IMG/VR virus record: IMGVR_UViG_3300028920_000146 | Span: 1-40,292 of that record | Strand: one strand, 5' to 3' | DNA length: 40,292 bases | From: a virus | Part shown: positions 9,691 to 22,999 of the stretch, piece after piece | Numbering within the stretch: the first letter of the stretch is position 1 | How the letters are laid out: every line of letters begins with the position of its first letter | Position numbers and translations under genes: made by a program | The notes under the pieces: model-generated | Databases searched by the model: none | Told to the model about the DNA's origin: nothing | What the model saw: only the letters and a program-made list of their open reading frames with translations

Positions 9691-9817
9691 GGTTGAGAAG
9701 AAACTAGAGGAGGCTCGCAGATTGGTAGCCCAATTCGAGGAGACCTTCGATAAAATCGAAGACGCAATATTTGATATTATTACTATTTTTAAGGAGAGCA
9801 GTAATGAGCAAAGCTGA
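9683..9817 (+). CDS. Small coiled-coil protein (44 residues)
   Basis: The start ATG overlaps the end of the HTH gene by 8 nt, and the stop lies inside the start of the exonuclease gene. The product is acidic and heptad-rich (VEKKLEEARRLVAQFEETF). This 8-nt style of overlap is the same as in the small-gene array at 16437-18477. No function can be assigned. Confidence 0.5.
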   Translation: MDEVEKKLEEARRLVAQFEETFDKIEDAIFDIITIFKESSNEQS

Positions 9818-10523
9818 TTACTACGACATCGACCTTCCAAGCGCATCGCTTCTTAGGTCAATACATAAGAACGGAATCAAGAAAGCCATGTGGATGAAAG
9901 ATCATCCAACGCCATCCAAGGCTCTAGCTTTTGGTTCCGCATACCACAAGTTCATACTTGAAGAGACAACCTTCGAGTGTGATTATTTTGTACTGCCTAA
10001 GTTCGGCAGATCCAAAGATGACCAAGCTGCAAAGAAAGCCATCATCGAAACTAATAGCGATAAGACTGCTATCACCCAAGATGATATGAACAAGCTTCTC
10101 GCAATGAGAGAGGCAATGATGGATAACGCACTTGCCCGTCATTACCTACGGAACATCGAGACTGAAACAGAATACTTTTTTGAGTTGAACGATATTGAGT
10201 TCAAGGCAAAGGTCGATGCGATAACCGTGGAGAACGTATTACTAGAGTTAAAGTCCACTAGCGATCTTGCCCATTTTCAACTGGCTTTCTTCAAGTATGC
10301 CTACCACATCCAGGCGTGGCTTTACAAGAAGGTAGTGGCCCCGAACGACCTTGTCTTTATAGCGCAAGACAAGGAGCCTCCTCATGAAGTGAGATTCTTC
10401 AATATCTCAGATGAGGTTATAGCGCAAGGTGAAGCGGATGGACTTGCCGCTCTTGAAGAATATGTCAAGTTCAAGGAGACGGGTATCTGTCAAGCTTACC
10501 CTGAAGAATTGGAGGTTATCTGA
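9804..10523 (+). CDS. RecE-like PD-(D/E)XK exonuclease
   Basis: A 239-residue nuclease of the RecE / DUF3799 type, expected to resect double-stranded DNA ends for phage recombination. Visible motifs in order: His48 in ALAFGSAYHKF, acidic residues 119-123, Asp138 in FKAKVDAI, the ExK pair Glu148-x-Lys150 in LLELKST, and Gln170-x3-Tyr174 in YHIQAWLY. The start ATG at 9804 sits 7 nt after AAGGAG and is preferred to an upstream in-frame ATG at 9771 that would add a hydrophobic stretch. It forms a recombination module with the DUF932 and Rad52-like genes that follow. Confidence 0.8.
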   Translation: MSKADYYDIDLPSASLLRSIHKNGIKKAMWMKDHPTPSKALAFGSAYHKFILEETTFECDYFVLPKFGRSKDDQAAKKAIIETNSDKTAITQDDMNKLLAMREAMMDNALARHYLRNIETETEYFFELNDIEFKAKVDAITVENVLLELKSTSDLAHFQLAFFKYAYHIQAWLYKKVVAPNDLVFIAQDKEPPHEVRFFNISDEVIAQGEADGLAALEEYVKFKETGICQAYPEELEVI

Positions 10524-14407: not shown

Positions 14408-14564
14408 GACTAGAAGGTTTGGTGATTCAATAATCAGGGGTCGCACCTGCAAAGAATGCGGCAGGAAATTTGAAACCATAGAAATAGAAGGTGATCCAAT
14501 GTGGATCATTAGTGAATTATATTTTTTAGAGGAGAAGCAAAATGGGTTACACACAGAAGGATAA
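14355..14564 (+). CDS. Small NrdR-like zinc-ribbon protein
   Basis: A 69-residue protein starting at TTG 14355, 5 nt after a perfect GGAGGT. It contains KCHGIGASRVTETRRFGDS and IIRGRTCKECGRKFETIEI, the pattern of the NrdR-type zinc ribbon ('V.dSR....iRRRR.C..CG.RFtT.E'). The second CxxC is intact, but the first knuckle has only one Cys (C-H-G-I-G), so metal binding may be altered. It is far shorter than NrdR and lacks the ATP-cone, as in other small phage zinc-ribbon proteins. It overlaps the resolvase reading frame by 53 nt. Confidence 0.65.
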   Translation: MSISRSKCHGIGASRVTETRRFGDSIIRGRTCKECGRKFETIEIEGDPMWIISELYFLEEKQNGLHTEG

Positions 14565-14805
14565 TTCGGGAGTTGCGTTCAACAACGAACGTAAGGAGCG
14601 AGATTCCCAGCCGGACATTACTGGCAAGGGGATGATTTTTGGCAAAGAGGTATCTATTGCCATGTGGAAGAATACGTCTAAAAACGGGAAGCCGTATCTA
14701 GCATGGAAGGTTGGTGAGCCGTACAGGAAAACGGAAGATCAGCCTGCTCCCAGTAGCCAGCAGGATAAACAAGAGCAATCGAATGAAATCTATGAGCCAT
14801 TCTAG
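14542..14805 (+). CDS. Small conserved phage protein with NSGVxFxN/PDxxG motifs
   Basis: An 87-residue protein with GAGGAG upstream of its ATG. It opens with KDNSGVAFNNERKERDSQPD, then G.GMIFGKEVSIAMWKNTSK, like a widespread short phage and proteobacterial protein type ('NSG.LFkN..K....PDy.G.....g....sgW.k') whose biochemical role is not established. The C-terminus is Gln/Pro-rich and acidic, the sort of tail seen on ssDNA-binding proteins, but no OB fold can be claimed. It lies between the zinc-ribbon and Lar-like genes. Confidence 0.6.
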   Translation: MGYTQKDNSGVAFNNERKERDSQPDITGKGMIFGKEVSIAMWKNTSKNGKPYLAWKVGEPYRKTEDQPAPSSQQDKQEQSNEIYEPF

Positions 14806-15963: not shown

Positions 15964-16436
<473 letters not shown>

Positions 16437-16440
<4 letters not shown>

Positions 16441-16844
16441 CTAACGACCCCCACCGCCGGATAATAAACTTGCAGGCTGAGGTGGATTTGCTCCGCGCCG
16501 AGAACGAGCACTTGAAAAAGAAACTGGAGTCTCAGTGTGATATTACGCATGGGCTGGATACTCTGTACCAACGCATAATTACCGAAGTGTTGGAGTGCGC
16601 CCCTATCTCAGCAAGCGAAAGGGAAGATGGTACGCTTGAGCCACCTTGGGAGGTAGTTGCCAGGGTGCGTGAGGATCGCGACAAGCTCCGCGCCGAGAAC
16701 GAGAGGTTGAAAATTATCAATATAAAATCGATAGTCAAGAGCGTGATGAGGAAAATGACCGATTGCGATGATCTTAAGTCCGGTGAATTGGTGCTATCTG
16801 AAGAAATCCATAAAAGATATTTAGAGGAGGTGGGCGATGCCTGA
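16437..16844 (+). CDS. Coiled-coil accessory protein, LRAENE type
   Basis: A 135-residue protein with two copies of the zipper motif: LRAENEHLKK (residues 20-29) and DKLRAENERLK (residues 82-92). Between them is a short non-coil segment with EPPWEVVARVREDRD. The zipper motif recurs in several following genes and its DNA (CTCCGCGCCGAGAACGAG) is almost unchanged. The C-terminus EEVGDA overlaps the next start by 8 nt. It is probably an accessory protein acting through coiled-coil pairing. Confidence 0.6.
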
Positions 16845-17274
16845 GCAATACACAAAACGAGGCGGCTTGCTGTGGGTAGACAACGAGTACTGGCAAGCGG
16901 ATCGTGCAGAGATAGAGCATCTCAAACGGATACTGGGCCTGAAAGACATCTGCCCTCATTGCGGTAGGCGTTTGAGCGACCATGGCTGTGCATGTGGAGA
17001 AGATGAGCGACTAGGACAAGGAGGAGCGCCATATAACTACGAGAGCCTTGAAGAGTGGTGCTCAGAGTTGGAAGAGATGAATGACAAGCTGATCGCTGCG
17101 AATCGTGAATTGCAGGATGAGAACGAGAGGCTGACTGGTAAAGTGCAACATCTTGAAGAGCTAATTAACCGAATTGCCAATCCACCAAAACATTATGGCT
17201 ATTATGATTATCGTGATGCTGTAGATATGATTTATGAAAGCAGCTATTTTGATAAAGAGGCTGGCGATGAGTGA
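16837..17274 (+). CDS. Coiled-coil protein with zinc knuckle
   Basis: A 145-residue protein. Residues 7-30 (KRGGLLWVDNEYWQADRAEI) closely match the start of the gene at 18268. A zinc-binding-like CPHCGRRLSDHGCAC follows (residues 39-53), then a coiled coil ending DENERLTGKVQHLEELI, and a Tyr-rich tail. It ends EAGDE at the first exact copy of the boundary repeat. This looks like a mosaic of modules found elsewhere in the array. Confidence 0.6.
   Translation: MPEQYTKRGGLLWVDNEYWQADRAEIEHLKRILGLKDICPHCGRRLSDHGCACGEDERLGQGGAPYNYESLEEWCSELEEMNDKLIAANRELQDENERLTGKVQHLEELINRIANPPKHYGYYDYRDAVDMIYESSYFDKEAGDE
17257..17274 (+). repeat. Gene-boundary repeat, copy 1
   Basis: GAGGCTGGCGATGAGTGA, 18 nt. 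It holds the end codons of one gene (EAGDE-stop) and the ATG of the next in another frame. Exact copies are at 17528 and 17739, with a close variant at 18043. Confidence 0.9.
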
Positions 17275-17545
17275 AATAGATGTCAAATGGATTTTATTTG
17301 AACTACAAAAGCAGCGTGATTTGATTTATCAATTAGCGAAAAAGGTTGTTACAGGCAGAATGGTGAAAATCTTAAGTAACTATAACGGTCAGCCTTATGG
17401 TTCTTCACGGCCATCTATGAAAGGGGAGGTCGTGGCTGTTACTGGAGTTTGTCCTGGCAGTGATCTTCAGTTGTGGTTACTTGGATATAATTGCTCAATA
17501 AGTCTAGATGAGGTGGAGTTTATTGATGAGGCTGGCGATGAGTGA
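17267..17545 (+). CDS. Small accessory protein (92 residues)
   Basis: Starts MSEIDVKWILFELQKQ at ATG 17267, overlapping the upstream stop by 8 nt. The C-terminal half (MVKILSNYNGQPYGSSRP, GEVVAVTGVCPG, CSISLDEVEFI) looks like a small SH3-like beta barrel domain. It ends FIDEAGDE at the second boundary repeat. No specific family was recognised. Confidence 0.55.
   Translation: MSEIDVKWILFELQKQRDLIYQLAKKVVTGRMVKILSNYNGQPYGSSRPSMKGEVVAVTGVCPGSDLQLWLLGYNCSISLDEVEFIDEAGDE
17528..17545 (+). repeat. Gene-boundary repeat, copy 2
   Basis: This is the exact 18-nt boundary sequence. Together with the following AAATA it is identical to copy 1 over about 22 nt, so both downstream proteins begin MSEI. Confidence 0.9.
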
Positions 17546-17756
17546 AATATGTTTTAATTGCAACAAACCATTCGTTGGCACAGATCATTGCCTATGCCAC
17601 GCTGCTGTCCAAGTTCAGGCTGAGTTTCGGAAGCTTCGCGCCGAGAACGAGCGTCTGAAATCTAAGCTTGGCAGAGTGATGGCTGAAGTTGAACATGATC
17701 ATGGGATGGAATATCTGCTCGAGATTATGGCACAGGTGGAGGCTGGCGATGAGTGA
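17538..17756 (+). CDS. Small zinc-knuckle plus zipper protein (72 residues)
   Basis: Starts MSEICFNCNKPFVGTDHCLC: CxxC and CxC pairs that could bind zinc, then FRKLRAENERLKSKLGRVMA, the shared zipper. It ends VEAGDE at boundary repeat copy 3. The layout of a metal knuckle followed by a coil mirrors the gene at 16837 in shorter form. Confidence 0.55.
   Translation: MSEICFNCNKPFVGTDHCLCHAAVQVQAEFRKLRAENERLKSKLGRVMAEVEHDHGMEYLLEIMAQVEAGDE
17739..17756 (+). repeat. Gene-boundary repeat, copy 3
   Basis: This is the third exact copy of the 18-nt boundary sequence, again placing a stop codon and a start codon 8 nt apart. Confidence 0.9.
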
Positions 17757-18060
17757 GTGTAAAATAGTCGAAGGCGAGAGCGGTTTGGCGGCATGTGCAG
17801 ATGAGCGTGACAAACTCCGCGCCGAGAACGAGAGGCTGAAAGAGCAACTCCGTTTATGTAATATAGATCAGTGCAATGCCGAAGCTGAGAACGAGAAACT
17901 TAAGACAATCATCAAAAAGCTGGATAAGCTGTGTGAAGAAATCCGATACAGCCACACCGATCCAGGCGATGCAATATATTACAACCATTGCGATAATGGT
18001 GAAGAGTGTCTTTGGTGCGTAGAAACAAAACAGCTTGCGGAGGAGGCTTGCGATGAATGA
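17749..18060 (+). CDS. Zipper protein with Cys-rich tail (103 residues)
   Basis: Starts MSECKIVEGESG, then DERDKLRAENERLKEQLRLC and AEAENEKLKTIIKKLDKL give a long coiled coil (residues 20-65). A second half has YNHCDNGEECLWCVETK, a possible metal site. It ends EEACDE at a variant boundary sequence (GAGGCTTGCGATGAATGA). It is probably the most complete zipper member of the array. Confidence 0.55.
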   Translation: MSECKIVEGESGLAACADERDKLRAENERLKEQLRLCNIDQCNAEAENEKLKTIIKKLDKLCEEIRYSHTDPGDAIYYNHCDNGEECLWCVETKQLAEEACDE

Positions 18061-18277
18061 CCTACTAAAAAAGCTACAGATTGCTGCGTCTGAAGCAGAG
18101 CAACACGCAGGTGGATATGTATGCGTCTCGTCAGGCAAGCCTACTGCAACAAGAGCGGTGTGCAGTGTAGCAGAGCTTATTGAGTATATAAATAGGTTGC
18201 GTCAGATGGCCTGCATTGGCCAGTCAGTGCACGAGTGTAAGGTGGTTGATCCGTTGGAGGCTGTAGAATGCGAGTAG
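18053..18277 (+). CDS. Small accessory protein (74 residues)
   Basis: ATG 18053 overlaps the upstream stop by 8 nt. The product (MNDLLKKLQIAASEAEQHAG, then VSSGKPTATRAVCSVAELIE, YINRLRQMA) is helical without the LRAENE motif. The end (LEAVECE) echoes the boundary-coded C-termini of its neighbours. It overlaps the next gene by 10 nt. The family is unknown. Confidence 0.5.
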   Translation: MNDLLKKLQIAASEAEQHAGGYVCVSSGKPTATRAVCSVAELIEYINRLRQMACIGQSVHECKVVDPLEAVECE

Positions 18278-18477
18278 GTGAAGGCCAAATAATCAAGCGC
18301 AACGGACTACTCTGGTATGATAACGAGGCCTGGCAAGATGATCGTGCAGAGTTGGAGAGGCTCCGCGCAGAGATCGAAGCGCTGAAGGAGATGTGGTATA
18401 TCAAGGGCTTCAATGCCGGAGCACACGCAATTAGTAAAGGCTACAAAATAGCAAGCTTAGAGGAGGTGCAGGGATGA
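18268..18477 (+). CDS. Short paralogue of the 16837 gene N-terminus (69 residues)
   Basis: Residues 9-32 (KRNGLLWYDNEAWQDDRAEL) match KRGGLLWVDNEYWQADRAEI of the gene at 16837, then ERLRAEIEALKEMWYI is a zipper variant. It looks like a reshuffled or truncated duplicate. The AGAGGAGGTGCAGGG segment at the end supplies the ribosome binding site for the next gene, which overlaps by ATGA. Confidence 0.55.
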   Translation: MRVGEGQIIKRNGLLWYDNEAWQDDRAELERLRAEIEALKEMWYIKGFNAGAHAISKGYKIASLEEVQG

Positions 18478-18683
18478 GCAAAATTGATCCGGCAATACTG
18501 ATTCTCAAAGGAAAGTGGGAGAAAGCAGAGCATGATAATGGGCAACTCCGTGCTGAGGTTGCAGAGCTGTCAGAGGCACTCCATTCAATCCTTGCTTATG
18601 ACAATCCGCTCAATACTATGGCACCTGAAACAATACTCTCACAAATATACGAACTTGCTGAAGAAGCTCTAGGAGGTAGATGA
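18474..18683 (+). CDS. Small coiled-coil accessory protein (69 residues)
   Basis: Starts MSKIDPAILILKGKWEKAEH with a coil DNGQLRAEVAELSEALHSIL, a diverged form of the LRAENE zipper. The rest is helical and acidic. It ends EEALGGR within an AGGAGGT ribosome binding site for the next gene (TGATG overlap). This is the last zipper member of the array. Confidence 0.5.
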   Translation: MSKIDPAILILKGKWEKAEHDNGQLRAEVAELSEALHSILAYDNPLNTMAPETILSQIYELAEEALGGR

Positions 18684-18951: not shown

Positions 18952-19076
18952 GCAAGATGAAAAGACAACATTGCCCAGAATGTGGAAAAAAGATGATTTT
19001 ACTTTCAGGTAATATTAAGCGGTGGATTTGCGATAGCTGTGGGCTGATGTTTCCAGTAAAGAAAACTGATGGCTAG
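18948..19076 (+). CDS. Tiny zinc-ribbon protein (42 residues)
   Basis: The product is MSKMKRQHCPECGKKMILLS, then RWICDSCGLMFPVKKTDG: two CxxC pairs 16 residues apart, a complete four-Cys zinc ribbon. Start and stop both overlap neighbours (ATGA upstream, 8 nt downstream). Such small ribbons in phages often bind nucleic acid or host polymerase, which is inference here. Confidence 0.65.
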   Translation: MSKMKRQHCPECGKKMILLSGNIKRWICDSCGLMFPVKKTDG

Positions 19077-19629
19077 ACTCATCATCCTCTCAACAGGTAG
19101 ATCGGGGACGACATATATCCACCGCTGCCTATCCCATCTCGGGGTTAAGTTTGGCCATGAGAAGTTAGACTATCAAGGAGGCATCGGCTGGAACTTCGCT
19201 ATCGACTTCAAAAGATCATGCGATATCGTCCTCCATCAAGTCCGAGAGCCGTTTGCCTGCATCTCAAGCCTCACTGCTTTCACTCCATACCATTGGGAAC
19301 GTGTCCGTAAAATCTACGGTAAAGAGATGCCGGAAGACCATCCAGCGAAAGCCGTCTGGTTTTATATCACCTGGAATAACAGATGCGAGAAGCTTGCAGA
19401 CAAGACCTACCGACTAGAGGATATCTACTACGGGAGCGAGAAGGCTAACAGCCTCCTAGATATCCTGGGAGTGAACAAGCCCTGGCCACCAATCTCATCA
19501 GTGGGGACAACAATCAACGCAAGACCTCATGCGGTCTACTCGATAAACGATGTGCCGGGAGAATACCGGAAGGAGCTATTGAAAATGTCTAAACGCTATG
19601 GATATAAGGAGCAAGAAGAAGATGATTGA
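19069..19629 (+). CDS. Sulfotransferase-like P-loop protein
   Basis: A 186-residue protein. Residues 5-18 (IILSTGRSGTTYIH) match the 5'-phosphosulfate-binding loop of PAPS-dependent sulfotransferases ('GR.GTt'), and VREPFACISSL at about residues 59-69 matches the second ('R.P......S') motif. C-terminal motifs are weaker, and the protein is shorter than bacterial sulfotransferases (about 250-300). It could transfer sulfate to a host surface sugar, a phage glycan or a modified base. It begins a run of genes sharing AAGGAGCAAGAAG boundaries and lies 1.4 kb upstream of the radical SAM/glycosyltransferase block. Confidence 0.6.
   Translation: MARLIILSTGRSGTTYIHRCLSHLGVKFGHEKLDYQGGIGWNFAIDFKRSCDIVLHQVREPFACISSLTAFTPYHWERVRKIYGKEMPEDHPAKAVWFYITWNNRCEKLADKTYRLEDIYYGSEKANSLLDILGVNKPWPPISSVGTTINARPHAVYSINDVPGEYRKELLKMSKRYGYKEQEEDD
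19606..19624 (+). repeat. AAGGAGCAAGAAG boundary repeat, copy 1
   Basis: This copy carries 3 extra nt (GAAGAAGATG). It codes for KEQEEDD at the end of the sulfotransferase-like gene and contains the ribosome binding site and ATG of the next gene. Copies 2 and 3 are at 19862 and 20151. Confidence 0.85.
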
Positions 19630-19882
19630 AGAGATGACGTTCACAATAAATGGCAGAGGGATGTGGATCCCAGGTTACGTGATGGCAATAAAACACATTG
19701 GTGGTAGCACTGTCAGTTTTGGTGATAATGGCAATATGAGTTTTCACGATGGCATCCATATACATCCCGACCAGACGTTTACATTCTCACCAGCGATCAG
19801 ACGTATGAGGGTCCGGACGTTGTGTAAGTGCAAGGCTATAATCAATTGCGTTTTTATGAGCAAGGAGCAAGAAGATGGCTGA
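19622..19882 (+). CDS. Hypothetical protein (86 residues)
   Basis: Starts MIEEMTFTINGRGMWIPGYV at ATG 19622 behind AAGGAG. It is beta-rich with many His residues in the middle (MSFHDGIHIHPDQTFTF), and ends with a basic, Cys-containing helix and SKEQEDG. Clustered His could bind metal. The family is unknown. It overlaps the sulfotransferase-like stop and the next start by 8 nt each. Confidence 0.5.
   Translation: MIEEMTFTINGRGMWIPGYVMAIKHIGGSTVSFGDNGNMSFHDGIHIHPDQTFTFSPAIRRMRVRTLCKCKAIINCVFMSKEQEDG
19862..19877 (+). repeat. AAGGAGCAAGAAGATG boundary repeat, copy 2
   Basis: A 16-nt sequence identical to copy 3 at 20151..20166. It codes for KEQED at the end of one gene and carries the ribosome binding site and ATG of the next. 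Confidence 0.9.
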
Positions 19883-20174
19883 TATGGAAGATGAGTTGAA
19901 GGCGCTTGCCCCGTGCGAAAAGGGCACGTTAGTATATGATCTTGAGCAGTATATTGATGGCAAATGGGTGAAGCTGATTACTAACGAGGAAGAGCTAGAC
20001 GTCTTGTCTAAATGTAATATTTACGAACTCACTAAGCTGGCAACAGAAAGCGATGCATTTGCTATCAACAGTGCGCATATTGGAATCGCTACAACAGTAT
20101 CTAATGGCCCTATCAGAGTTGTTGTGACTAAATATATTCCAGAAAAGAAGAAGGAGCAAGAAGATGCCTTATAA
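19875..20174 (+). CDS. Hypothetical acidic protein (99 residues)
   Basis: ATG 19875 lies inside the boundary repeat, AAGGAG being 7 nt upstream. The product is MADMEDELKALAPCEKGTLV ... EELDVLSKCNIYELTKLATE ... PIRVVVTKYIPEKKKEQEDA. Mixed alpha/beta, no motif recognised. The end is again coded by the boundary repeat. Confidence 0.5.
   Translation: MADMEDELKALAPCEKGTLVYDLEQYIDGKWVKLITNEEELDVLSKCNIYELTKLATESDAFAINSAHIGIATTVSNGPIRVVVTKYIPEKKKEQEDAL
20151..20166 (+). repeat. AAGGAGCAAGAAGATG boundary repeat, copy 3
   Basis: Identical to copy 2 over 16 nt. It supplies the ribosome binding site and start of the gene at 20164. Confidence 0.9.
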
Positions 20175-20433: not shown

Positions 20434-21027
20434 ATGAAGATTGAAAAGAGGAGCATCTCAAAGATTAAACCTTACGAGAAAAATCCTCGTAAGAATGACG
20501 GGAAGCCAGTCCAGGCGTTGATAGAATCAATAAAGCGCCATAAGCAGGTAAAGCCCATAGTCATATCTGCTAAAGGCAAGCCGTTCGAAGATGAGGTTAT
20601 CTGTTGCGGGCATACTACCGTTAAGGCTCTTAGGAAAATGGGCAATAAAGAGGTTGCCGTTGTCGTAAGGGAGTTTGAAAGCGAAGCCGATTTCGTTGAC
20701 TACATGATACGCGACAATCGTACTAATGAGTTTGCTGAGTGGGACTACCCTATGTTATCAGATATCGGTGTCTCTCATGGTGTGGACCTTGCCGGGATGG
20801 AGTTTGAGATTGACTACGGTTCTGATGATGAGGAGCTGCCAGACCAAGAAACCGACTCTGTACCTGATGTGGATATGGAGGGTGAGATCGTAAATGAATG
20901 TGATTACGTTATCATCTATTTCGAAGAAGATAATAAAGCAAAAGCTTTCAGGGAAAAGATTGGTATCGGTGAAAATAGTAGATCTATCAATTGGGATGTT
21001 CTAGCCGAAAGCTACGGCATCGAATGA
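20434..21027 (+). CDS. ParB/Srx-domain protein
   Basis: A 197-residue protein with AAGGAG upstream. Residues 1-85 are a ParB-like nuclease domain: ISKIKPYEKNPRKNDGKPVQ, ALIESIKRHKQVKPIVIS, then EVICCGHTTVKALRKMG, where GH(R/T)T...A replaces the usual GERR box. In phages this domain is often joined to or beside DNA-modification enzymes. Residues 105-130 look like the bridging part seen in such proteins (DNRTNEFAEWDYPML), while the C-terminus is acidic. There is no methylase domain. The stop overlaps the radical SAM start (ATGA), so the two are co-translated. Confidence 0.75.
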   Translation: MKIEKRSISKIKPYEKNPRKNDGKPVQALIESIKRHKQVKPIVISAKGKPFEDEVICCGHTTVKALRKMGNKEVAVVVREFESEADFVDYMIRDNRTNEFAEWDYPMLSDIGVSHGVDLAGMEFEIDYGSDDEELPDQETDSVPDVDMEGEIVNECDYVIIYFEEDNKAKAFREKIGIGENSRSINWDVLAESYGIE

Positions 21028-22292
21028 TAAACTTCTACATTCTGCCAAGGGGTTACCTAGTAGGTCCGAAGAAACAGATACCGTTAGGTGTGCTTTACCT
21101 GTGCGCTGCGCTCAAGGAGCGCTATGGTGATAAGGTTGCACTTGTAGACCTCTCTGTAAGTGATATTGAAAGCGTGCTGGACAATGACGCTACTGTCCAC
21201 ATGTTCTCTATAACATCGCTAGAGATAGGGCTTTTAAACAAAGCTGCAAAACTCCTGAAGGGAAAATGCTGCGATAACAGTGTTATCGTTGGTGGCCCAG
21301 GTGTCCTAGCCAAAGAAATGATAGACATGGCTAACATTGATTGTGTTTGTTATGGTCATGCAGATGAAGAGATATGCGACATCGTTGAGGGGGTAATCAA
21401 TGGTGAGCTTGAAAAGCTGCATGTGTGTAATCCAATCTCAGACATCGACAGGTTGCCAATCCCTGCCAGAGATATGGTTGATGGCGCTCTCGGTGGTGGC
21501 ATATTCTCATATGACCACGAATACAAGGATGGTGGCAGTACAAATATAATAAGCTCTAGGGGCTGCCCTTACACTTGTGCTTTCTGTAGCTCCCCATCAT
21601 GGACAAGGAAAGTCATGATGCGAGATCCTAAACTGATCCGTAAGGAGATGGAGCATGTCATAGAAACATATGGTGTCAGGCAGTTTCGCTTCTCCGACGA
21701 CATGTTTACGCTGAGCGACAGCAGAATAAAAGCCGTTTGCGACGAAATATCCGGACTTGACGCTGTTTATAGGATCTCATGTAGGGTTAAGCCAATGACA
21801 GAGTATATGCTACAACGTTTGCGTGAGTCAGGTTGTGTCGAGCTTTCTTTCGGTGTGGAGTCGTTCGATGATAACGTACTCAGCACCCTTAATAAGAAAA
21901 CCACTGCGGAGGATAATGTTAACGCTATACGGCTTGCAAAAGAATATGGGTTCACTGTGCGTGTTCTGTTCATGGTCAATACTCCTGGGCAGACCGAAGA
22001 CACAATCAAAATGAACATGGAGGCTCTCGAAGGCCTGGAATACGATATACTTGCTTGCAGTATATTCGCACCGCTCCCCGGCACTGATGTTTGGGCAAGA
22101 CCTGAGAAGTATGGGATACGGATAGTGAACAGGAACATGGACGACTACAACATATATTCGTTCGATGGGAATGGCCTTCGTGAACACATAAGGCTTTTCG
22201 AGTACATAGACCAGGACACAGATAAAATGGAAGAGGTTTCATATGGGTTCAGACGATGGCTATCAGAGTGCGGAAGAATAAACAAAGGCTAG
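21024..22292 (+). CDS. B12-binding-type radical SAM enzyme
   Basis: A 422-residue enzyme. The start ATG 21024 overlaps the ParB-like stop; an earlier frame start at 20991 is rejected. Residues 1-125 resemble a cobalamin-binding Rossmann domain (LPRGYLVGPKKQIPLGVLYL, VIVGGPGVLA). The radical SAM cluster motif CPYTCAFC is at residues 181-188 after SSRG. The remaining TIM-barrel features include FRFSDDMFTLS and ELSFGVESFDDNVL, and MVNTPGQTEDT. Members often methylate unreactive carbons or make C-C/C-S changes. The substrate is unknown. The C-terminus overlaps the glycosyltransferase gene by 37 nt. Confidence 0.85.
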   Translation: MINFYILPRGYLVGPKKQIPLGVLYLCAALKERYGDKVALVDLSVSDIESVLDNDATVHMFSITSLEIGLLNKAAKLLKGKCCDNSVIVGGPGVLAKEMIDMANIDCVCYGHADEEICDIVEGVINGELEKLHVCNPISDIDRLPIPARDMVDGALGGGIFSYDHEYKDGGSTNIISSRGCPYTCAFCSSPSWTRKVMMRDPKLIRKEMEHVIETYGVRQFRFSDDMFTLSDSRIKAVCDEISGLDAVYRISCRVKPMTEYMLQRLRESGCVELSFGVESFDDNVLSTLNKKTTAEDNVNAIRLAKEYGFTVRVLFMVNTPGQTEDTIKMNMEALEGLEYDILACSIFAPLPGTDVWARPEKYGIRIVNRNMDDYNIYSFDGNGLREHIRLFEYIDQDTDKMEEVSYGFRRWLSECGRINKG

Positions 22293-22999
22293 CCCCTATT
22301 GCTATCCCGACGAGGGGAAGGCACAAGAACGGGTTGACATGGAAACACTTCCATTCAGCGACACTTTTCGTCCTAGAGGAGGAGGAAAGGTTATACCGTG
22401 AAGCAGGAATAAAGAATAAGATAGTAACTCACAATGGCAGATGTACTGCAACAGCGCGCAACGCTATACTTGACCATTATGGAAAGGGTGAGCGTGTAAT
22501 AATCCTTGACGATGACATAAAAGCTTTCGGGAGTTTTATGTATGCAGACGGGAAAAACCGCAACGTCAAGATGCGACCGGAAGAGTTCCATGCGGAGCTT
22601 AACTCATGGTTCGACAAGTCGAAGGGCAGGAAGCTTTTCGGTGTAGCACCTACAGACAACTGCCTCAATTATAACCATAAGAAAAAGGTTGCTGTCGATA
22701 TGTTCCTCCTTGGTGCATGCCACTGTATTGTGGTTTCGGATATACGGTTCGATGTAAACGCTATAGGTAAGTGTGATTATGATTTTACTATATCGCACAT
22801 AGTGAAGGGTGAGGGCACTTTCAGGCTCAACTACATGTATATAGATGTTGACTATGGAAAGATGGATGGAGGAACAAAGATAACAAGACTTGGAGATTGG
22901 AAGAAGACTGGATACTTTTACACACTAGCAAAATGGCCAAACTACCTAACACCAAACCCGAAAAGAAGATACGAGTTTGTATTAAAAAGCCCAAGCTGA
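22256..22999 (+). CDS. GT-A glycosyltransferase, TAGT-like
   Basis: A 247-residue protein with the GT-A pattern: IAIPTRGRHKNGLTWKHF at about 16-33, then TATARNAILDHYGKGERVII and LDDDIKAFGSFMY (DDD near 80-82, the metal/nucleotide-sugar site), then KMRPEEFHAEL. The order 'PTRGR ... ARN.i ... DDDi..f' is that of phage TET-associated glycosyltransferases (TAGT), which in relatives act on modified bases, though no TET/JBP enzyme is seen here. The start ATG 22256 has only a distant GAGG. It overlaps the next gene by 67 nt. An acceptor other than DNA (protein, surface sugar) cannot be excluded. Confidence 0.65.
   Translation: MAIRVRKNKQRLAPIAIPTRGRHKNGLTWKHFHSATLFVLEEEERLYREAGIKNKIVTHNGRCTATARNAILDHYGKGERVIILDDDIKAFGSFMYADGKNRNVKMRPEEFHAELNSWFDKSKGRKLFGVAPTDNCLNYNHKKKVAVDMFLLGACHCIVVSDIRFDVNAIGKCDYDFTISHIVKGEGTFRLNYMYIDVDYGKMDGGTKITRLGDWKKTGYFYTLAKWPNYLTPNPKRRYEFVLKSPS

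Follow-up and report, generated by a model that had tools for sequence, protein, structure and literature searches.

A run of small phage genes linked by repeated copies of a short stop/start joint

The phage genome and the surroundings of the array

The window analysed here is an entire IMG/VR virus record (IMGVR_UViG_3300028920_000146; 40,292 bases), in which terminase, portal and major capsid genes were identified by family matches. The large terminase is no more than about 41% identical to known ones, among the matches listed. No DNA relatives were found among 50,697 phage records with the 10 kb around the array as query, and a single-protein terminase scan of IMG/VR found no close relative; nor did a scan with a terminase alignment, in which the best of the matches listed was about 40% identical. 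The array sits in a block of small genes, with the early region on one side and packaging genes on the other. The following genes lie around it.

9771-10523, + strand: RecE/exonuclease VIII-like gene (phrog_412, E=1.2e-48; PF12684, E=1.9e-20)
14542-14805: probable single-strand DNA-binding protein (phrog_18154, E=1e-07), located after the exonuclease region and before the array
15964-16440: g0, the gene preceding the array, with a coiled start, an EPEPEPEP linker and then apparently two copies of a tryptophan-rich domain; relatives of its C-terminal part occur in many phages
19069-19629: small protein beginning MARLIILSTGRSGTTYIH, with a sulfotransferase-like P-loop (Pfam match sub-threshold only)
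20434-22999: adjoining genes of ParB-like, radical SAM (with B12-binding domain) and TAGT/HMC-glucosyltransferase-like type, which may form a cluster for DNA base modification

The RecE/exonuclease VIII-like gene is possibly part of a phage recombination system; no annealing-protein partner for it was identified in the window.

Genes of the array

Eight small genes, here called g1 to g8, follow one another head to tail.

16437-16844, + strand: g1, 135 aa, two LRAENE[H/R]LK zippers (16476-16517 and 16671-16712); 4-nt ATGA overlap with the upstream gene
16837-17274, + strand: g2, 145 aa, N-terminal GLLWxDNExWQxDRAE module, CPHC..CAC cysteines, long coiled coil, EAGDE end
17267-17545, + strand: g3, 92 aa, without zipper; GC 0.40, GC3 0.35; bounded exactly by two 18-mers
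17538-17756, + strand: g4, 72 aa, CFNC..HCLC cysteines and LRAENERLK zipper; bounded exactly by two 18-mers
17749-18060, + strand: g5, 103 aa, LRAENERLK zipper and AENEKLK
18053-18277, + strand: g6, 74 aa, without zipper
18268-18477, + strand: g7, 69 aa, second copy of the GLLWxDNExWQxDRAE module, LRAEIEALK
18474-18683, + strand: g8, 69 aa, LRAEVAEL only; 4-nt overlap at each end

None of the array proteins matches a curated family (Pfam, PHROGs, NCBIfam), weak coiled-coil resemblances falling below the cut-off, and the ead/Ea22-like coiled-coil family gave no match in these collections. When the array proteins were searched against phages, matches were solely to the upstream gene g0. An AlphaFold2 prediction of g2, made without an alignment, has a mean pLDDT of 66 and is confident for the coil alone (helix 71-114, mean pLDDT 91-97 across residues 71-110).

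The N-terminal modules of g2 and g7 are paralogous (z=16.8 with zippers masked; 75% at the DNA level over 55 nt). The GLLW module pattern had no matches in the viral or genome contigs searched, and the five matches to a looser pattern were all to unrelated proteins. Sequence comparison of g3, g4, g5 and g6 with the zippers masked revealed no clear kinship, and thus the source of each gene is not traceable. The lower GC of g3 fits arrival, which is weak evidence from a single gene of 279 nt. An origin of g1 by fusion of g4 and g5 was suggestive, but not significant once the zippers were masked.

The earlier note on this DNA attributed the phrase LRAENERLK to all eight genes. However, LRAENE[R/H]LK is found only in three, with four occurrences (twice in g1, once each in g4 and g5). 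The other genes carry LRAEIEALK (g7), LRAEVAEL (g8), LQDENERL (g2) or no such phrase (g3, g6). Recurrence of the zipper phrase as DNA, which the note had also described, is confirmed: the codons CGC-GCC-GAG-AAC-GAG are common to all four strong copies, and CTC is in addition common to three. Genome use of the zipper codons is low (CTC 12%, CGC 12%, GCC 18%), and the probability of four zippers with the same five R-A-E-N-E codons is about 1e-6 under either genome or array codon usage. Third-position GC is 0.67-0.89 in the zipper phrase, versus 0.33-0.59 in the genes examined. The common rare codons and the high third-position GC thus point to a common DNA ancestry of the zipper segments. The 26-nt zipper phrase family also extends to nine further viral stretches, where the coiled-coil genes that carry it are otherwise different. 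A search with the tandem zipper pattern returned no matches.

The joint between consecutive genes

The genes are connected by copies of one sequence, the 18-mer GAGGCTGGCGATGAGTGA, or by more divergent relatives of it.

16827-16844, + strand: g1/g2 joint, divergent copy GAGGTGGGCGATGCCTGA, 14/18 (missed in the earlier note)
17257-17274, + strand: g2/g3 joint, exact 18-mer; 22 nt common to it and the next copy
17528-17545, + strand: g3/g4 joint, exact 18-mer
17739-17756, + strand: g4/g5 joint, exact 18-mer
18043-18060, + strand: g5/g6 joint, variant GAGGCTTGCGATGAATGA, 16/18 (2 mismatches)
18258-18277, + strand: g6/g7 joint, weak trace with GAGGCT and then a shifted ATG, 10-nt overlap; read from sequence, not above background (missed in the earlier note)

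The three exact copies and the variant at 18043 had been reported previously, and all four are present in the sequence; dinucleotide shuffles of the window are expected to give 0.01 matches at up to 3 mismatches. The reading of the 18-mer as EAGDE-stop in one frame (EACDE-stop in the 18043 variant) and as the ATG of the next gene in another is likewise correct. Five consecutive joints (starts 16837, 17267, 17538, 17749 and 18053) follow the pattern GAGG-N3-GCG-ATG-NN-TGA; the overlap is 8 nt, and at the 18-mer copies it is ATGNNTGA. The Shine-Dalgarno (SD) sequence is GAGG, 6 nt before the start. As EAGDE-stop is the joint read in the upstream frame, the end of the upstream gene doubles as the ribosome-binding site of the next. 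The g7/g8 joint (g8 start 18474) and the g1/g2 joint have TTAGAGGAGGTG in common.

Outside the exact copies, the 40-nt flanks match at 4-15/40 positions on either side, approximately the background level. The earlier note saw a modular array rather than simple duplication, and the flanks, with likeness ending at the joint, bear out that this is not a simple tandem duplication of whole genes. Deletion in silico of 17257-17527 (g3, 271 nt), of 17528-17738 (g4, 211 nt) or of both (482 nt) leaves all remaining tested proteins unchanged, and deletion using the variant joints alters one or two C-terminal residues. Because deletion between exact copies is clean, g3 and g4 each count, at the sequence level, as a unit that can be excised exactly. 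The joint holds ribosome-binding site, overlap, stop and start, and g3 or g4 can be removed in silico with both neighbours intact, as had been proposed. The same note saw in this a gene-shuffling cassette; the modular layout stands, but a selected function does not follow, since a by-product of recombination fits the data equally well.

A second run with its own joint

A further run of small genes in the window, not mentioned in the earlier note, has starts at 19622, 19875 and 20164 and its own joint, AAGGAGCAAGAAG(AAG)ATG.

19606-19629, + strand: copy 1, AAGGAGCAAGAAG-AAG-ATG with an extra AAG; upstream gene ends KEQEEDD
19862-19882, + strand: copy 2, exact AAGGAGCAAGAAGATG; upstream gene ends KEQEDG
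20151-20174, + strand: copy 3, exact AAGGAGCAAGAAGATG; upstream gene ends KEQEDAL

This purine-rich joint is less significant, with 0.78 matches at 3 mismatches expected from shuffles. As the two runs have different joints, joints are common within a run and not genome-wide.

Joints in other viral records

The exact 18-mer is found in 15 other viral records (16 with that of the 45.9-kb contig described below), in about ten unrelated sets. In each it is a stop/start joint, EAGDE and stop followed by MS[E/D], and in all but that contig it stands alone. It was therefore rejected as a mark of kinship: a single copy, recurring in unrelated phages, is not diagnostic and is easily reached by convergence.

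The exception is the L011/L119 contig (G001, 45.9 kb), where a series of small genes contains three in-line joints (GAGGCTGGTGATGAGTGA, GAGGCTGGCGATGAGTGA and AGGGCTGACGATGAGTGA). None of the genes in this stretch could be recognised as a relative of an array gene, and thus the design seems to recur in different phages. Another start repeat in this contig, AAGGAGCAAAATGCAAGA, differs from these joints and has identical copies at two start-like sites (L119:1233 and L119:1808), 575 nt from each other.

A search with the paired-joint pattern gave three matches, two of which are the same sequence (8.2 kb identical). In L123/L125/L126, GGAGGGGCGATGAGTGAC is found at two successive starts, once as a 4-nt and once as an 8-nt overlap; the two joints of L126 are near-identical with different overlaps. 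Homologues (53%) of an L126 gene lie in other neighbourhoods without the joint, where the surroundings are mosaic and do not amount to a gain/loss comparison. The paired-joint match L124 was discarded as not being a gene run. Shorter runs of like design are thus present in two unrelated phage lineages.

Origin of the array

The array is best explained, with a probability of roughly 0.6, as a translationally coupled accessory operon that grew as small orphan genes were duplicated or inserted at short joints, each event adding a copy of the joint. The small, mostly orphan genes lie head to tail and would be translationally coupled through the repeated joint. Growth would most likely have proceeded by copying genes or by bringing unrelated ones to an existing joint, and each insertion would leave a copy of the joint on both sides of the new gene. 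With a copy on each side, ribosome binding and overlap would be kept, and exact loss would also be allowed. Zipper and GLLW segments would also have been copied between array genes, so that the array would be a mosaic of short common islands in otherwise unrelated sequence. The recombination route may have been illegitimate or of a phage annealing/RecE type. Copying of the joint within the run is well supported, and movement of genes through the joints is the best inference. This origin is supported by the five joints in succession that bear copies, three of them exact and two related, and by the RecE-like exonuclease encoded by the phage. Against it, the collections searched yielded no relative that has or lacks a given array gene, g3 to g6 show no clear kinship outside the zippers, the exonuclease has no identified annealing partner, 18-22 bp is short for homologous recombination, and the joint is mostly under functional constraint, so that selection will to some degree have kept or narrowed it.

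If the genes instead stayed put, short patches (joint and zipper) could have been copied between fixed neighbours by gene conversion. Likeness is limited to short, local islands with flanks at background, as conversion would predict, and the zipper islands appear to have been copied likewise. However, repeated conversion of tiny patches would be required, and the run of 8-nt overlaps would go unexplained unless it was already present. This alternative is considered unlikely.

Convergence, in which selection for a good ribosome-binding site and a stop/start overlap fixes near-identical joints without common ancestry, has in its favour that GAGG, ATG and TGA are functionally fixed and that the 18-mer occurs singly in unrelated viral sets, always as a stop/start joint. 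However, seven pairs of start regions at least 16/18 alike are found among the approximately 59 gene starts of the window, and all are close neighbours. In 121 comparison loci (1.2 Mb, 10,783 start pairs), likeness of this degree outside the window is confined to isolated pairs, and no group of four is formed. With SD, ATG and TGA held fixed, three joints with SD and 8-nt overlap are identical at 8 free positions with a probability of about 1e-8. Two neighbouring runs in the same genome have two different private joints, which would not result if the whole phage had one optimal ribosome-binding site. The confinement of similar pairs to neighbours, the identity at free positions and the zipper codons (P about 1e-6) together argue that codon convergence alone, the outcome that the earlier note had named as contrary to its reading, does not produce the repeats. 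Judging from these comparisons, ordinary convergence would account for single joints and not for the run, and as an explanation of the array it is quite improbable.

An old tandem duplication of whole genes, with the genes diverged past recognition and the joint and zipper kept alike by selection, could draw on the collinearity of g1 with g4 and g5 through its two zippers (spacing 195 vs 181 nt), the match of g2 to g7 at the N-terminus and an alignment score of 948 for block [g1-g2] versus [g4-g7] (shuffled maximum 793), but only g2-g7 stays significant with zippers masked, and exact identity over 18-22 nt, synonymous sites included, amid fully diverged flanks is hard to achieve via selection alone, making this, too, a poor candidate.

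Comparison with known gene joints

Gene joints of a similar sort are already known from a few other phages. The boundary sequences of lambdoid phages, also short conserved DNA at the joints of a run of small accessory genes, have been proposed as recombination sites at which modules are exchanged (Susskind and Botstein 1978; Clark et al. 2001 (HK620), as cited in PMC3029335, refs 21 and 22). The nin joints of lambda and P22, used as positive controls, hold ribosome-binding site, stop and start as well, but their best within-genome pairs are 12/18 (lambda) and 15/18 (P22), whereas the array has three copies identical at 18/18. Lambdoid exchange is supported in the literature by comparison between phages, whereas the present array is known from one phage. 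A ninR location in a lambda-like phage is not indicated: no such gene is among the family matches, and the terminase is at most about 41% identical among the matches listed. By analogy, the array joints would work like boundary sequences, but outside the lambdoid set; they differ in their exactness, in their repetition at consecutive overlapping joints and in being private to each run.

Start-associated sequences (SAS) of cluster K mycobacteriophages (PMC3203893) and cluster EF Microbacterium phages (PMC7302621) are similar: several non-structural genes carry a highly conserved repeat at their ribosome-binding sites, conserved beyond what 16S rRNA pairing needs, as is also seen here. However, SAS are 13 bp long, spread over half the genome and mostly placed after intergenic gaps >50 bp, whereas the array joints overlap the end of the upstream gene and are consecutive in one run, with a second run using another sequence. 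The SAS consensus GGGATAGGAGCCC (or its EF variant) was not matched by the array copies, which differ in sequence and lie inside the upstream gene.

Neighbouring genes with common 3'-end DNA are also seen in Island3, where gp67 and gp68 share a C-terminal repeat of about 50 bp and one whole gene is inserted or deleted between copies relative to Brujita (PMC3029335). That repeat is longer and involves one gene, in contrast to 18-22 bp at several consecutive joints in the array. ATGA-type overlapping gene pairs, in the accounts of termination-reinitiation coupling in PMC6728339 and PMC10666635, also have a stop/start overlap with coupled translation expected; compared with the pairs in these accounts, the array joints differ in that the overlap is 8 nt long, an SD lies upstream, and the joint sequence recurs. 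Phage Rad52-like recombinases work on short homologies (PMC3945230).

Significance

The exactly repeated joint, together with a second run that uses another sequence, offers a place for a direct test of the boundary model. A simple rule could be used to search for such runs elsewhere: neighbouring genes whose start regions agree at 16/18 positions or more while the flanks are unrelated. It is a tentative and somewhat doubtful generalisation that accessory operons in several unrelated phage lineages are assembled through one insertion of an orphan gene after another, each at a self-renewing docking joint of about 18-22 bp that is private to the run, so that genes can change in order and number while the translation signals are preserved. 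With a joint of this layout, whole genes could be gained or dropped without harm to their neighbours, which bears on the old question of how phages take up small orphan genes without breaking compressed operons.
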